Shown piece by piece: positions 20,762-26,805 of a DNA stretch of 64,000 nucleotides. The stretch comes from Glutamicibacter nicotianae (GTDB lineage: Bacteria > Actinomycetota > Actinomycetes > Actinomycetales > Micrococcaceae), in the NCBI RefSeq assembly GCF_006539525.1, contig NZ_BJNE01000002.1, forward strand, positions 124,001 to 188,000, in the 5' to 3' direction. How positions within the stretch are numbered: position 1 is the first letter of the stretch; the number at the start of each line of letters is the position of its first letter. The notes beneath the pieces were generated by a model. It ran no database searches. It was not told the DNA's origin and saw only the letters and a program-made list of their open reading frames with translations. The translations under genes were made by a program, and so were the position numbers.

Positions 20762-21139
20762 CTAGTCTTTCGCCTTCACTGCAAGCACCGGGCAGTCGGC
20801 CTCGATCAGGATGCGTTGGGCGATGCTGCCCATGAGCAGCTTGCCTACGCGCGAGCGCTTGCGCAGCCCGAGGACGATCAATGCGGCGGAATGCTCCTGC
20901 TCTGCCTGGAGGACGAAATCGGCAGCGTCATGGACCGGGCCGTCCTGCGGCAGGATCTGCAGTGGAACCCCGAGATCCAGCAGGGCATCGAGGTCGATGT
21001 CCAGATGCTGCTCGGTGATCGGCTCCTTGTCCAGGTTCGCGATCAGCAACCGGTCCTGTGCCTTGTGGGCCTCGGCCAGCCCGCGCCGTATGGCCAAGCG
21101 GCCCGCGGGGGTGTCGCTGTAGCAGGCGATGATAGCCAT
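20762..21139 (-). CDS. Universal stress protein (UspA family)
   Basis: 125 residues. The UspA ATP-site region is seen as GLRKRSRVGKLLMGS followed by AQRILIEADCPVLAV at the C-terminus. The ATG has AGGAG six bases upstream. It is the last gene of the tct operon, 25 bases after TctB. UspA proteins are known passengers in tripartite transporter operons; a regulatory or nucleotide-sensing role is likely but not shown. Confidence 0.82.
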   Translation of the reverse strand: MAIIACYSDTPAGRLAIRRGLAEAHKAQDRLLIANLDKEPITEQHLDIDLDALLDLGVPLQILPQDGPVHDAADFVLQAEQEHSAALIVLGLRKRSRVGKLLMGSIAQRILIEADCPVLAVKAKD

Positions 21140-21164: not shown

Positions 21165-21926
21165 TCAGAGCCAGTTGGCCAGCAGGCCCTGTGGCAGGTC
21201 GATGGGAAGCAATGACGGCAGGGCCAGCATCAGGATGAAGAACACCACCGTGTAGATCATCGTGGTCTTCAGCTTTGCTCGGGCCACGATGAGCAGGAAG
21301 GCCGGAACGAAGACCGAGATGGCTGCCAGGTATCCCACCAGCGAGGTGAGCACGAGGAACCCAGCCATCCAGCTGAAAGTCCGCAAGGCGAAAGACGCAT
21401 CGTTGGTCCACTTGGGGCCCCAAGCCGAGTTGCGGCCAGTGCCCGCTGTGCTGGTTCCAGCCGGATATCCGGTGCCCGGACCGGTGTCCGGCTGGTGGAT
21501 CGCAGCCGTTGCCTGGGCAGTGCCGGATGGTGCATGCCCTGCAGCTACGGGGACGGCTTCGGCAGGCGCGGTGAGATAGGCTGCGGCCGATACGTTGACC
21601 TGCCGGTCCGCGGCCATCGCCGTCTTGCGGGTGCGCAGTTCCAGCGCCAGGAGGATTCCGGACATGATAACTCCGACCCAGCCGACCAGCTGCGGAACAA
21701 GTTTCGCATCCGGGGAGTAGCTGGAGGAGAGCAGCAACGATCCGGCGAAGACCAGCAGCAGCACTGCGGCCGCGGCCAGAGACCACACCGAGTTCTTCAG
21801 CGGTGCTTCGGCATCCGGAGCGCTGTCCGACTTCGGATCGTCGTCGGCGCCGAGCTTGCGGCGGGAACGGACCCACTTGAAGACGTTCCAGAGGATCGGC
21901 AGCACGAGCACGGCGATGAACACCAT
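21165..21926 (-). CDS. tctB: TctB-like small membrane subunit, probably the 3' part of a frameshifted TctA-TctB fusion
   Basis: 253 codons from ATG 21926. The first about 30 residues (MVFIAVLVLPILWNVFKW) look like the last helix of TctA, not a TctB start. Four TctB-like helices follow: about 50-70, 80-98, and a pair after residue 180, separated by a long Ala/Gly/Pro/Thr-rich loop of roughly 70 residues. The frame is +1 relative to TctA. If one base were restored near 21930, TctA and TctB would be one polypeptide of about 720 residues. As sequenced, TctB could start at ATG 21926 inside tctA. Confidence 0.6.
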   Translation of the reverse strand: MVFIAVLVLPILWNVFKWVRSRRKLGADDDPKSDSAPDAEAPLKNSVWSLAAAAVLLLVFAGSLLLSSSYSPDAKLVPQLVGWVGVIMSGILLALELRTRKTAMAADRQVNVSAAAYLTAPAEAVPVAAGHAPSGTAQATAAIHQPDTGPGTGYPAGTSTAGTGRNSAWGPKWTNDASFALRTFSWMAGFLVLTSLVGYLAAISVFVPAFLLIVARAKLKTTMIYTVVFFILMLALPSLLPIDLPQGLLANWL

Positions 21927-23323
21927 GGTCCCGGACGCAGCATCCACTCGAAGCCCTCGTACAGGCTGTCGGTCAGGAAGTAGTAGCGCTCCATCGGGAT
22001 CGCCAGCACGAAGCCGATGAGGAAAGGAGCCCGCGGGAATCCTGTGGACTTCAGCACCCAGCCGGCCACGCCCAGCAGCACCATGACCCACAGGTCGCCC
22101 AGCTGACCGCCGTCCTGGAAGGAACCCAGCAGCATGATGACCACCAGGCCGGCGGCCAGGACAGCGAAGGGAACCTTGGTCAGCGAGGAGAGCGGACGCA
22201 CGGTCAGGAAGCAGAACAGGGCACCAAGCACCGAGGCGATGGCGAAGGCCCAGATGATCATGTACATCAGGTCCAGGTGCTCGTTGATGATGCTCGGGCC
22301 CGGCTGGATGCCGTAGGTCAGCAGCATGCCCAGCAGCATCGCCGAAGGCACGCCTCCGGGGATGCCGAACAGGAAGGTGGGGATCAAATCGCCGGCTTCC
22401 ACCGAGTTGTTCGCGCTCTCCGGCCCGACGATGCCGCGCGGGTCGCCCTTGCCGAACTTGCGCTTGTCCTTGGCGGTAGCCACCGCCTGGCCGTAGGCCA
22501 GCCAGGTGCCTGCGGTGGCGCCCACGCCCGGCAGCACGCCGGCCCAGATGCCAATCAGCCCGCCGCGCAGCACCTGGGACCAGTGCCCCAGCCACTCGCG
22601 GATGCCCGAGCCCCAGCCGCCGGTTACTTCTACGCTCTGCTGGTCGCCGCGGCGCTGGCTGGCGCGCGAGGCGATCTCGGCCAGTCCGAAGACGCCCAGG
22701 GCCACTGCCACCAGCGACAGCCCGTCGCCGAGGAACAGCGAACCGAAGGTGAAGCGCTCTTCCGCGGTGGTCGGCGCGGTGCCGATCATTCCCACCAGCA
22801 GACCGGCCAGGCCGGCGGTCAGCCCCTTGATCACGTTGCCCCGGGAGAGCACCGCGGCCAAGGCGACGCCGAGCACCGTGAGCATGAACAGCTCAGGGCT
22901 GGCGAAGGACAGGACCAGCGGGCGGGCCAGCGGGATGGCCAAGGTCAGGCCGACCGCGCCGATCAGCCCGCCGGCCATCGAGGAGAGGAAGGCCAGGGAC
23001 AGGGCGCGCTTGGCTTGCCCCTTGCGGGCCATGGCGTAGCCATCGAGCATCGTCACCGAGGCCGAGGCGGAGCCCGGGGCGCCGAGCAGGATCGCCGACA
23101 CCGTATCCGAGGTGTGCACCACCGCCAGCGCGCCGATCAGCAGGGCCAGCGCCGAGGCCGGGTCCATGCCGAAGGTGATGGGCAGCAGGATGGCCACGGC
23201 GGCGGTGCCGCCCAGGCCGGGGATCAGGCCCATGACCAGTCCCGAGATGACGCCGATGAGCAGCATGAGCAGCATGCTCGGGTCGGCCAGCGAAGCCAAT
23301 GCGGCCATTGCGGATTCCAGCAT
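21797..23323 (-). CDS. tctA: TctA large membrane subunit of a tripartite tricarboxylate transporter, C-terminus frameshifted
   Basis: 508 codons. IPGLGGTAAVAILLPITFGMDP and GILPGVGAT-like repeats (GVLPGVGATAGTWLAYG) are TctA hallmarks, as is PMERYYFLTDSLYEGFEW near the end. After LRPG (about residue 464) the frame reads 44 Ser/Pro/Arg-rich residues unlike any TctA, while the expected last helix continues in the next frame. The site near 21930 reads CCGGGACCATGG where CCGGGNACCATGG is expected, so one base appears deleted. GGAGG lies six bases before the ATG. It follows the PrpF-TctC fusion gene by 11 bases. With the UspA gene it forms one operon. Confidence 0.75.
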   Translation of the reverse strand: MLESAMAALASLADPSMLLMLLIGVISGLVMGLIPGLGGTAAVAILLPITFGMDPASALALLIGALAVVHTSDTVSAILLGAPGSASASVTMLDGYAMARKGQAKRALSLAFLSSMAGGLIGAVGLTLAIPLARPLVLSFASPELFMLTVLGVALAAVLSRGNVIKGLTAGLAGLLVGMIGTAPTTAEERFTFGSLFLGDGLSLVAVALGVFGLAEIASRASQRRGDQQSVEVTGGWGSGIREWLGHWSQVLRGGLIGIWAGVLPGVGATAGTWLAYGQAVATAKDKRKFGKGDPRGIVGPESANNSVEAGDLIPTFLFGIPGGVPSAMLLGMLLTYGIQPGPSIINEHLDLMYMIIWAFAIASVLGALFCFLTVRPLSSLTKVPFAVLAAGLVVIMLLGSFQDGGQLGDLWVMVLLGVAGWVLKSTGFPRAPFLIGFVLAIPMERYYFLTDSLYEGFEWMLRPGPWCSSPCSCCRSSGTSSSGSVPAASSAPTTIRSRTALRMPKHR

Positions 23324-23334
23324 TGCTTGCCTCC

Positions 23335-25620
23335 TTAGTCGATTTCAATTCCGTAGGAGTCCTTGAGCAACGCGGTCACGTAGCCCTTGGTCTCCTCGGT
23401 GACGGTGTACGCGTCCTTGACGCGCTGGGAGAGGTTCTCGTCTGCGACGATCGGGTAGCCGCCGAGAACATCCTCGGCCTTGTCGTTGAATTCCTTGTCT
23501 TCGGACAGCTGGTGCGCGGACTCGCGCAGCAGCTCGACAGCTTCCTCGGGTGCGTCCTTCGGTGCCCACAGGCCCTTCTGGTAGGTATAGGTCAGGCCCA
23601 GCAGGGTCTTGTAGGCCTCCAGCTTCGGCCCGCTCGGCGCCTTGCCGTGCAGCTCCTCGTATACCTCGACGACGGTTGGCGCGTCGGGGAAGTTCGGATC
23701 CCGCACGACCTTGCCGTTCTCGTCGAGCTGCCCGAAGGACATCAGCACGGTGGCGGAGCCTTCCTCGGCCAGAGGTTCCACCGCCGAGTGGTAGGAGGAG
23801 GTGGTCGAATAGTCGATGTCCACCTCGCCGCGCTGCAGGGCCAGGTTCACCGGACCGCGTCCCTCGAAACCGAAGGTCGCCGAGATGTCGGCTTCGAGCA
23901 GGTCGAAGGCGACTAACGTGGTCAGGTCCAGGCCGGTGGCGGTGATGCCGCCGAAGACCAGCGGCTTCTTGCGGTCCACCAAGTCCTTGACTCCGTCCAC
24001 GCCGGCGTCGGTGCGGGCGTAGATCACCCCGCCGGTGCCGTTGACCAGTACCGGTTCCAGCTTGTCGAAGGAATAGCGCACCACATCGCGGTCCAGCACC
24101 CACGGCACCACGGTGGTAGCGGTGCTCACCAGCAGTTCGGTCCCATCATCGGCGGCCGAGCTGGCGAAGCGGTTGCTGCCGGTAATGCCTTCGCCGCCGG
24201 CTTCGTTGATCGGGGCGAATCCCGGTTGCCCGGGAATGTCGTGCACCAGTTCCTGGCCGACGAAGCGGGCCCAGGTATCGGTGCCGCCGCCCTCGGCCAG
24301 CGGGATGACCATTTCCAGGGTCTCGCCAGCATAGTCGCCATCGGCGGTGGTGGCCGGCGGGTTGAGCAGACCGCCGCCGAGCAGGGTGGCTCCGAGCCCC
24401 AGGGCGGCGAATGCCGCCACCGAGGCGAAGACCGTGCGGCGCTTGTGCGGCGGCGGATCATCGAGCAACTGCGCGGACGCAGGGGCGAGCGCTGGTTCGC
24501 CGGCCAGCATGGCAGTGGCCTGCACTTCGGGCGGGGCGACCGGGTCGAAGCTAAGTTGCGCCTCGGCCAGCTCGCGGGCAGTTCGGGTGGTTCCGACCGC
24601 GGTCCTGCCCTCGATCTCGCGCTGCCAGGTCTGCATCTGCCCTGCAGGGGTCTGCATGCGCAGCACCTCGCCTGGTTCCGCGGAGAGCAGATTGGCGATG
24701 ATCGTGCCCCGCTTCCGTGCGGCCATGGTCAGCGCGACGCTGCCTGTGATGGCCAAGGCCGGGTGCGGCGCTCCCATGGAGAGCATCATGACCCTGAAAT
24801 CGCCTTCGTCGCCTTGATCCGCTGCCTGGGCGATGGCCAGTTTCGGGATGGCCCGCTGCGCGGATTCGGCGCTGTCGGACAGGCCCATGGCCACGGCCCC
24901 GGCCCGGCGGATCTTCTCCAGCTTTTCGGACTCGGCCAGCGCCTGAGCCGGCCAGTCGGCGAAATCCACGGCATCCAGGCCGGCCTGGGCGGCGCTGATG
25001 ATGACTACTGGCGCTCCGGCATCGATCAGCGTGGCCTCTGCCTCGAACCCCGGCTGCGTACCGTTGCCGGCTACCTGCAGCGTGCTCAGCGCTTCGCCGG
25101 CCGGCAAGAGCTGGCCGGTGGTGCCGCCGGCCGGATCGAGGAAGCCGATCTCCACTGCTTGGCCGGGGAAGGGTACCCCGGGAATGAACTCGGCGGACTG
25201 GGTGCCGTCAAGGTTCATGCGTTCGACGAGCAGCTGCCCGGTGTTGGTATTGCGGATGTGCACGGTCACCTGGCCGTCAATGGCATCAACCCAGCCGTGC
25301 TTGAGCGCGTACGGAGCGATGACTGCCGAGCAGTTTCCGCAGTTGCTGCCCCAGTCCACCACGGCTTGCTCGATGCCCACCTGCGCGAAGGTATAGTCGA
25401 CATCTACGCCGGGTTCCTCGCTGGGGCTGAGGATGACGGCCTTGCTTGTCGTCGAGGTTCCGCCGCCGACACCGTCGATTTGGCGCGGGTCAGGAGAGCC
25501 GAAGAGGCGCAGCAGCACCTCATCGGCGGTGAAGCCGGGAACTTCGAGCGCACTTCGCTCGAAGACCCAGCATTTGCTAGTACCCCCGCGCATCCAAGTG
25601 GCCTTAACCGAGTGTTTCAT
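23335..25620 (-). CDS. PrpF-family isomerase fused through a membrane segment to a TctC solute-binding domain
   Basis: One uninterrupted frame of 761 codons from ATG 25620 (an in-frame GTG at 25677 is possible). Residues 1 to about 365 are a PrpF/aconitate isomerase domain: YMRGGTSK-like WMRGGTSKCWVF, then Lys60 in TSTTSKAVILSPS and Cys94 in WGSNCGNCSAV match the PrpF catalytic pair. After a Pro/Ala linker comes HKRR and a hydrophobic span at about 397-420, then a TctC (Bug-type) binding domain to residue 761. Positive-inside charge predicts PrpF in the cytoplasm and TctC outside. The HKRR segment looks like a TctC signal peptide that has lost its own start; an ATG at 24510 with AGG upstream could still initiate TctC alone. 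The substrate is probably a tricarboxylate or unsaturated acid. Confidence 0.78.
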   Translation of the reverse strand: MKHSVKATWMRGGTSKCWVFERSALEVPGFTADEVLLRLFGSPDPRQIDGVGGGTSTTSKAVILSPSEEPGVDVDYTFAQVGIEQAVVDWGSNCGNCSAVIAPYALKHGWVDAIDGQVTVHIRNTNTGQLLVERMNLDGTQSAEFIPGVPFPGQAVEIGFLDPAGGTTGQLLPAGEALSTLQVAGNGTQPGFEAEATLIDAGAPVVIISAAQAGLDAVDFADWPAQALAESEKLEKIRRAGAVAMGLSDSAESAQRAIPKLAIAQAADQGDEGDFRVMMLSMGAPHPALAITGSVALTMAARKRGTIIANLLSAEPGEVLRMQTPAGQMQTWQREIEGRTAVGTTRTARELAEAQLSFDPVAPPEVQATAMLAGEPALAPASAQLLDDPPPHKRRTVFASVAAFAALGLGATLLGGGLLNPPATTADGDYAGETLEMVIPLAEGGGTDTWARFVGQELVHDIPGQPGFAPINEAGGEGITGSNRFASSAADDGTELLVSTATTVVPWVLDRDVVRYSFDKLEPVLVNGTGGVIYARTDAGVDGVKDLVDRKKPLVFGGITATGLDLTTLVAFDLLEADISATFGFEGRGPVNLALQRGEVDIDYSTTSSYHSAVEPLAEEGSATVLMSFGQLDENGKVVRDPNFPDAPTVVEVYEELHGKAPSGPKLEAYKTLLGLTYTYQKGLWAPKDAPEEAVELLRESAHQLSEDKEFNDKAEDVLGGYPIVADENLSQRVKDAYTVTEETKGYVTALLKDSYGIEID

Positions 25621-25635
25621 TGGATTGACCCAATC

Positions 25636-25744
25636 TATCGATAACGTAGCGCCCGCGTTAGATGTGACGCCGGGCACTTATGCCTGTATCGATAATGAGA
25701 CAGTCGACACTTAATTAGTAGTTACCCTTAGTTCAATAAATTGA
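25636..25744. promoter_or_regulatory. Divergent control region of the tct operon and lysR
   Basis: An A+T-rich gap of about 280 bases. Visible elements: TATCGATA at 25636-25643 and again at 25687-25694, 51 bases apart, and the dyad TTCAATAAATTGAA at 25731-25744, which suits a LysR-type T-N11-A site. No ORF is supported here. Confidence 0.45.
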
Positions 25745-25899
25745 AGCAACACTTAATTCAGCTTTTTTACTAGGAGAAAATGCGCGCCGAGCCGCTGATC
25801 GATTCGCGGCAGAGCCGTGCATTTCGTTGAAATTTCCGCAAGAATCCAGCAAATGTGCGCTTGATGAAATATAGTGAAGTTCTACTGCAAGGAGGAACC

Positions 25900-26805
25900 G
25901 TGCTTGATGCCAAGAGATTGCAGATATTGCTCTCCGTGGTCGAAGGGGGTTCGGTCACCGCGGCCGCCGACGAGCTGTTCTATACCCCGTCGGGGGTTTC
26001 GCAGCAGCTGCGCAAGCTCGAGGAAGAAGTGGGGCAGCCGTTGCTCCAGCGCCACGCCCGTGGCATGGTGCCCACCGACGCGGGCCATGTCCTGGCGGGC
26101 CATGCGCGCGCCATCCTGCAGCAGATGGATGCGGCCATGGCCGATTTGGACCAGCTGGCCGGCCTGAAGAGCGGAAGCCTGAGCCTGGGCACGTTCCCCA
26201 CGCTGGGCAGCTCGTTCATTCCGCTGGTCATCAGCCGCTTCCGCAAGATGTACCCGTCCATCAAGCTTGATGTGCGCAGTACCCGTCTGCGCGAACTCAT
26301 TGGCCTGCTCGCCAGGGGCGAGATCTCGATGGGCCTGCTGTGGGAATACGAATGGATGCGGCTCAAGCGCGACGATTTCGAGCTGACTACCCTGTTCACC
26401 GAGCCCACGGTGCTCGTGGTCGGCGCCGAGCATCCGCTGGCGCAACTCGAAGAGGTGGATGTGGCGGCCACTGCCCATGAGCAATGGATCGTCCGCGCCA
26501 ACGAGCACCCGGTTGCCGAGCTGCTGGAGCGCACCTGCAATGCGGCGGGGTTTTCCCCTAAGATCTCTTTCCAGGCCAATGACTACCAGGAAGCCCAGGC
26601 GATGGTTTCAGTGGGGCTGGGCATCGCCTTGGCCCCGAAGTCCGCAGTGGTGAACCATCATCCAGGGGTCAAGGTCCTCTCCCTGGGCGAAGCGGCCGCT
26701 TCGCGCAGCGTGCTGCTGGCCCAGCGGCGCGACCGGGTCCGCGCCCCTGCGGAAAATGCCTTCCAGACGCTGCTCGTCGACATGGGCAAGACCTGGATCG
26801 ACTAG
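25900..26805 (+). CDS. LysR-family regulator of the tct/PrpF operon
   Basis: 301 residues. The N-terminal winged helix-turn-helix (LLSVVEGGSVTAAADELFYT, then SGVSQQLRKLEEEVG) and a C-terminal inducer domain (SLGTFPTLGSSFIP onward) are typical LysR. The GTG at 25900 is chosen for its AAGGAGG four bases upstream. Divergent placement next to the tct operon marks it as the likely activator responding to the transported acid. Confidence 0.82.
   Translation: MLDAKRLQILLSVVEGGSVTAAADELFYTPSGVSQQLRKLEEEVGQPLLQRHARGMVPTDAGHVLAGHARAILQQMDAAMADLDQLAGLKSGSLSLGTFPTLGSSFIPLVISRFRKMYPSIKLDVRSTRLRELIGLLARGEISMGLLWEYEWMRLKRDDFELTTLFTEPTVLVVGAEHPLAQLEEVDVAATAHEQWIVRANEHPVAELLERTCNAAGFSPKISFQANDYQEAQAMVSVGLGIALAPKSAVVNHHPGVKVLSLGEAAASRSVLLAQRRDRVRAPAENAFQTLLVDMGKTWID

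Follow-up and report, generated by a model that had tools for sequence, protein, structure and literature searches.

Among the closest described counterparts of the locus reported here is the tar system of Bacillus velezensis (TarR-TarA-TarB), in which a PrpF-family aconitate isomerase is combined with a trans-aconitate transporter and a regulator of the LysR type (PMC11495376). In the same enzyme family, PrpF of Shewanella oneidensis has been reported to isomerise trans-aconitate to cis-aconitate, and its K73 and C107 variants did not support growth on propionate (PMC5690661). The aconitate-delta-isomerase Adi1 of Ustilago maydis interconverts cis- and trans-aconitate and favours trans by 88 to 12 (PMC4720413), the form likewise favoured by the aconitate isomerase of tar (PMC11495376). 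On the transport side, TctCBA systems are built from TctA, TctB and TctC parts, a fused TctA-TctB being a rare case (PMC5812351), and TAXI-GltS, described from Bordetella pertussis, joins a binding protein to an unexpected partner; one organism couples the two in translation, and others have them as a complete fusion (PMC12344293).

Here, we examined a 64,000-nucleotide stretch of the Glutamicibacter nicotianae genome (the window), in which a PrpF-family isomerase and a TctC-type receptor are encoded as one chain. Like tar, the operon around this gene has a LysR-type regulator, a PrpF-family isomerase, a dedicated transporter and no other enzyme; unlike tar, whose transporter is the MFS protein TarB, it encodes TctA, TctB and TctC instead, and the available text on tar describes no fusion (PMC11495376). 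Shewanella PrpF shares the family and the active-site Lys and Cys but is unfused and works with AcnD in the methylcitrate cycle (PMC5690661), whereas Adi1 is fungal, cytosolic and biosynthetic in role, serving itaconate production (PMC4720413). The receptor also departs from described TctCBA systems, as TctC here appears as a signal-anchored domain at the C-terminus of an enzyme, and the available part of that work mentions no TctC-enzyme fusion (PMC5812351); in TAXI-GltS the partner is a permease, in our gene a metabolic enzyme (PMC12344293). A first-pass annotation, made from the letters of this DNA, had known of no described PrpF-TctC fusion. In line with this, we found none in the literature covered on PrpF with TctC or PrpF with tripartite tricarboxylate transport, a coverage lying mostly outside the subscription journals.

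The fused gene runs from 25620 to 23335 on the minus strand, which the first-pass annotation had left unstated, as a single uninterrupted reading frame of 761 codons and a stop; the same frame is open upstream to 25677 (780 codons). No clear Shine-Dalgarno sequence precedes its own apparent start in the window (25620-25640, minus strand) or in L044-L047, L050, L052 and L056-L058, and the transcript may be leaderless or short-leadered, or the start may lie further upstream. The PrpF domain (residues 1-358; 24547..25620, minus strand) has matches among PDB structures and scores 251.9 bits against PF04303 over residues 5-353 (cut-off 27). Lys60 (codon 25443-25441) and Cys94 (codon 25341-25339), already named as catalytic at first pass, are indeed at those positions, within TSK and NCGN motifs shared in alignment with the Shewanella PrpF chain 2pvz; both are invariant in a 3-row alignment (A1), and we read them as the counterparts of K73 and C107. 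The domain falls short of both NCBIfam equivalog cut-offs, that of oxalomesaconate tautomerase (NF033377, 235.7 against 440) and that of PrpF (TIGR02334, 205.0 against 440.55), so that any substrate named for it is a probable one at best.

The C-terminal domain (residues 426-761 plus stop; 23335..24345, minus strand) stays below the PF03401 (TctC) gathering score of 27, with 20.1 bits for the whole protein and 23.2 bits for the domain alone, and PF03401 was matched at E 0.01 or better in 16 of 26 scanned TctC rows. A profile built from relatives (A2, including 26 of 41 TctC domains) matches, among other solved Bug/TctC receptors, BugD, 25hk, 6hke and 5oei at 1.3e-10 to 2.5e-8, over at most positions 2-227 of 335. 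Given these matches and TctA as the next gene, the C-terminal half reads as a divergent TctC. Structure prediction on alignment A1 reached a mean pLDDT of only 31.8. The host genome holds one PrpF gene (the fused one), four TctA genes, four TctC genes (three above the cut-off and the fused one) and one TatC gene.

The fusion proved to be shared. Among 395 genomes sampled from the family, 13 in four genera are fused at the junction (the window, L044-L047, L049-L052 and L055-L058), and in 12 of them the frame is intact; in the thirteenth (L055, genome G118) the junction is fused and the frame is broken inside PrpF. The frameshifted L048 (G013), counted apart, lacks one base just past the anchor, and its TctA is broken as well. 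The breaks in L048 and L055 are either decay or sequencing errors. As 12 genomes carry the frame uninterrupted and the thirteenth is fused with its break elsewhere, chance or a sequencing slip as the source of the fusion is ruled out, and the uninterrupted 761-codon frame noted at first pass is real. The wider search for such chains that had been proposed with it gave no further fusion in overlapping samples of the order (396 genomes), class (394) and phylum (296), with the best two or three candidates scored in each genome; the only full-length stop-free rows there came from the window's own genome and from G034, both already counted.

It had further been asked whether close relatives have two genes with a stop and a start at this junction. 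The next relatives do, but not uniformly, in view of the 13 fused loci: two separate frames are present in 14 nearer relatives (L053, L054 and L059-L070) and in 12 distant ones (L071, L072, L084-L086, L091, L092, L099-L102 and L107), and L087, cut by a contig end, is without PrpF. Of the 14 nearer relatives, 13 have their separate tctC start 65-87 bases past the stop of PrpF, whereas in L060 it lies 8 bases before the PrpF end. A tree of TctC unites the 13 fused rows with L048 in one clade (support 100/98). The TctA tree, with 37 of 41 rows (L099-L102, having less than 200 residues of TctA in the locus, were left out), places the split row L060, on a long branch, beside the fused rows on an open fork. 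Of 18 Glutamicibacter genomes, five carry the fusion and one the frameshifted form, while the other 12 are without a strong match to the TctC half. In nine chosen pairs both domains are under purifying selection, with dN/dS of 0.03-0.13 for TctC and 0.08-0.26 for PrpF.

Candidates from elsewhere were rejected. A plasmid search matched 359 records, one of which, from Sinorhizobium sojae, covered at least 80% of the query; there prpF and tctC are neighbours separated by a stop codon, and the signal looks, by eye, like an ordinary secretory one of the Sec type. Rows of about 820-1110 codons, twelve of which were inspected (L073-L079 and, in part, L080-L083, L088 and L089), consist of PrpF, a stop and then a different transporter gene, mostly MatC-like. 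A MatC-like permease follows PrpF in 12 of the 14 PrpF loci without TctC (L073-L083 and L088-L090; by sequence, with Pfam on L073 only). In 10 of these 12 permeases the N-terminal tail and helix are picked up by a profile made from 30 TctC anchors (E 2.6e-11 to 7.1e-4 over 1138 frames), namely the MatC/CitMHS-type loci L073-L080, L088 and L089; L082, where MatC begins without the extension, and L090 are unrecognised. Either the anchor module would have been put to use again on a transport partner of unrelated kind, or it would be a relic of a tctC replaced by matC.

The operon is ordered LysR, PrpF-TctC, TctA-TctB and Usp. The LysR-type regulator (25855..26805, plus strand) is divergent and recurs in 11 of the 12 other fused loci, the contig of L055 stopping before its position. 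TctA starts 11 bases past the stop of the fused gene; this permease (21797..23323, minus strand; PF01970, 422.3 bits) loses its frame near the 3' end, and a TctB-like part, found by blastp to relatives' frames, runs in another frame from ATG 21926 (21165..21926, minus strand). TctA-TctB is a single frame in 11 fused relatives and in L055. Compared with five relatives (L044-L048), the window has a one-base deletion near 21930 (21926-21930, minus strand) at the TctA/TctB boundary, with ATG 21926 immediately after. TctA/TctB function may survive the deletion, or the deletion may be a sequencing error; the operon of the window may be decaying or misread. The TctB part has no Pfam match in the window, and in the relative L061 its PF07331 score, 21.0 bits, stays under the cut-off of 29.1. 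The receptor is hence encoded with TctA, next in the operon, and with a weakly recognised TctB. A universal stress protein family gene (20762..21139, minus strand) ends the operon in the window and in 12 of 12 other fused loci. The other ORFs scanned nearby, besides Usp, were a MarR-type regulator with an MFS transporter and a cyclodeaminase-like gene; no Rfam match and no sigma-70-like promoter match was found near the operon. Plasmids of other bacteria carry comparable gene sets: in Gemmobacter fulvus (L133) a TctC-TctA-PrpF operon has tcuA, annotated as tricarballylate dehydrogenase, one gene beyond, and in Shinella (L134) a related TctC-TctA-PrpF operon is followed by an isocitrate/isopropylmalate-type dehydrogenase gene.

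We consider it probable, with real room for doubt, that the fused gene encodes a membrane-tethered isomerase joined to the receptor of its own importer, acting most likely on trans-aconitate or a similar C6 tricarboxylate. The reading starts from what the sequences show, namely a conserved fusion, its operon context, the presence of the catalytic residues and the likeness of the anchor to a Tat signal; from these we infer the topology, the substrate and a benefit of proximity. The PrpF-family isomerase would fold in the cytoplasm, the arginine-flanked signal-anchor helix would span the membrane once, and the TctC receptor domain outside would supply the TctA/TctB permease with a tricarboxylate, in all likelihood trans-aconitate. 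The tethered isomerase, placed at the importer's exit, would then make the TCA-cycle intermediate cis-aconitate at its inner face, and the divergent LysR regulator would govern the operon. Since the balance of aconitate isomerases lies toward trans, tethering by itself would not draw the reaction forward; the drive would have to come from uptake together with the TCA cycle. Among the window ORFs scanned around the operon we found no second enzyme of a tricarboxylate pathway, which fits a substrate needing one isomerisation to reach the TCA cycle. Trans-aconitate is the best candidate by analogy, favoured by the logic of tar, by Shewanella PrpF and Ustilago Adi1 and by the Gemmobacter tcuA. By the logic of the operon and that of tar (PMC11495376), the isomerase would permit growth on trans-aconitate. 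The available text on tar also cites a Glutamicibacter arilaitensis genome among its references for plant-beneficial isolates, and use of a Glutamicibacter isolate in that study is suggested (PMC11495376). Counting against our reading are the PrpF scores under the equivalog cut-offs, the TctC score under its Pfam cut-off, the deletion in the window's TctA/TctB, linker dN/dS values of up to about 1.0, the 12 of 18 Glutamicibacter genomes without a strong match to the TctC half, the placement of L060 and the absence of the twin arginine from L107.

The predicted topology turns on the anchor (residues 392-425; 24346..24447, minus strand). Hydrophobicity over 19-residue windows peaks at residues 396-419 (mean up to 1.96), directly after HKRR (392-395), and the runner-up, 554-572, lies inside the TctC domain with a mean of 1.57. 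As the first outscores the second, a single membrane helix is the likely and simplest reading, short of proof, and it agrees with the one helix, enzyme inside and receptor outside, predicted at first pass. The helix is kept, to judge from dN/dS of at most 0.10 in all nine pairs, which are not independent of one another. The predicted layout of cytoplasmic isomerase, one helix and outside binding domain could also suggest that the isomerase is controlled across the membrane by ligand bound at the receptor, in the manner of receptor enzymes with a single membrane pass; we return to this below.

By its sequence, the signal-anchor resembles the Tat-type signal of lipoprotein-like relatives. In the window RRTVF precedes a mildly hydrophobic stretch, and RRxhh occurs in the upstream segments of 35 of 40 relatives, being missing in L048 and L087 (both cut), L071, L072 and L107, the last of which keeps the anchor helix. 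The window's anchor has neither a lipobox Cys nor, by eye, a clear AxA cleavage site; a Cys near the signal is present in 9 of 40 relatives, all of them distant. Tat lipoproteins begin with an RR-type signal followed by Cys, and by eye this arrangement is found in 7 of the 12 distant PrpF-linked TctC proteins (L084-L086 and L099-L102); L071 and L072 have the Cys and no twin arginine. Members of the wider clade around the window have lost the Cys and have a tail before the helix, and all but L107 keep the RR. A plausible order, inferred from these present-day sequences, would lead from a lipoprotein to a signal-anchored receptor, then to a fused frame with an inner start and finally to an obligate fusion. 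The graded series supports the first-pass suggestion that the helix is a captured TctC signal. We tentatively extend this to a scheme, speculative at present, in which the receptor's export signal was captured stepwise in mid-chain, the export machinery threads the receptor behind a folded 360-residue enzyme, the product is an importer with a built-in first enzyme, and the tail-and-anchor module may dock a transport partner beside PrpF; docking is hinted at by the same tail and anchor on an unrelated MatC-type permease after PrpF.

Between the two domains lies a variable linker (residues 359-391; 24448..24546, minus strand). Measured from the TAR.LA motif to the anchor His, its length is 37, 39, 46, 50, 53, 56, 64 or 67 residues, in frame in all 13 fused loci. 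The lowest linker dN/dS, 0.11, belongs to L044/L045, where dS is close to saturation; pairs within g8 give 0.24-0.46, the two that include the window 0.50-0.56 and L049/L051 about 1.0, L046/L047 being saturated. Among fused frames the linker is unconserved in both length and sequence. Such variability would also be expected if the fusion were a near-neutral expression device, in which the stop between operon neighbours was lost and the two proteins gained a fixed 1:1 ratio and a membrane site, with no kinetic or regulatory advantage; the operon is the same in relatives with two separate genes, which indicates that an unfused pair is functional too. Yet the frame has outlived several in-frame length changes within one clade of four genera, and the separate tctC start appears to have been lost in Glutamicibacter. 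We regard this alternative as possible, though on the unlikely side.

The history of that start bears on a second alternative, in which each gene gives two products, the full-length fusion and a shorter, free TctC from an internal start, the short one serving transport. All eight fused frames outside Glutamicibacter keep a Shine-Dalgarno-like site with ATG (seven) or GTG (L055) at the position of the separate tctC start; with energies of -8.8 to -10.8 kcal/mol, these sites take ranks 1-3 in frames that have 21-34 in-frame ATG/GTG codons. In all five Glutamicibacter fused frames, the window included, the retained start is absent, which counts against the alternative. Initiation at ATG 24510 (Met371, in the linker), which the first-pass annotation had raised, is not borne out: at -4.3 kcal/mol its ribosome site is weak, coming eleventh of the 39 in-frame ATG/GTG codons, and the linkers of L044, with neither ATG nor GTG, and L045, with only a GTG (-1.5, 36 of 38), offer no matching ATG. 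The linker sites of L046 and L047 reach -3.1 (6 of 22) and -1.9 (21 of 30), and the graded series, too, argues against initiation at ATG 24510. Energies must be read with caution, as the strongest site of the window (-10.7) belongs to Met322, within the PrpF domain, and sites of the same strength occur at other positions in several fused frames. Strong-looking ribosome sites arise by chance too, and for this reason the argument for an internal start rests on conserved position and not on energy alone. As the start is present in unfused relatives, its loss in Glutamicibacter is suggested, a point on which the within-clade tree alone does not say. We find the production of two such products rather improbable.

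Gating of the isomerase by the receptor fares less well. Pfam found no signalling domain in the fusion protein, the linker through which a signal would pass is conserved in neither length nor sequence, and to our knowledge no PrpF protein requires an activator; despite the suggestive order of domains, we judge it very unlikely. A pseudogene or assembly artefact, to which the deletion in the window's TctA/TctB and the breaks in L048 and L055 might point, is hardly credible for a fusion that is intact in 12 genomes and in which purifying selection acts on PrpF and TctC alike (dN/dS 0.03-0.26 in the nine pairs).

Physical coupling of import to the first step of metabolism is often proposed and, in our judgement, seldom testable. 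The fusion raises a question for protein export, namely whether a signal-anchor of Tat-derived appearance can function downstream of a folded enzyme. Further, one bacterial family holds the split pair, the fused frame with an internal start and the obligate fusion, all within the same operon, and with these natural versions at hand the benefit of tethering, if there is one, would become testable by comparison.
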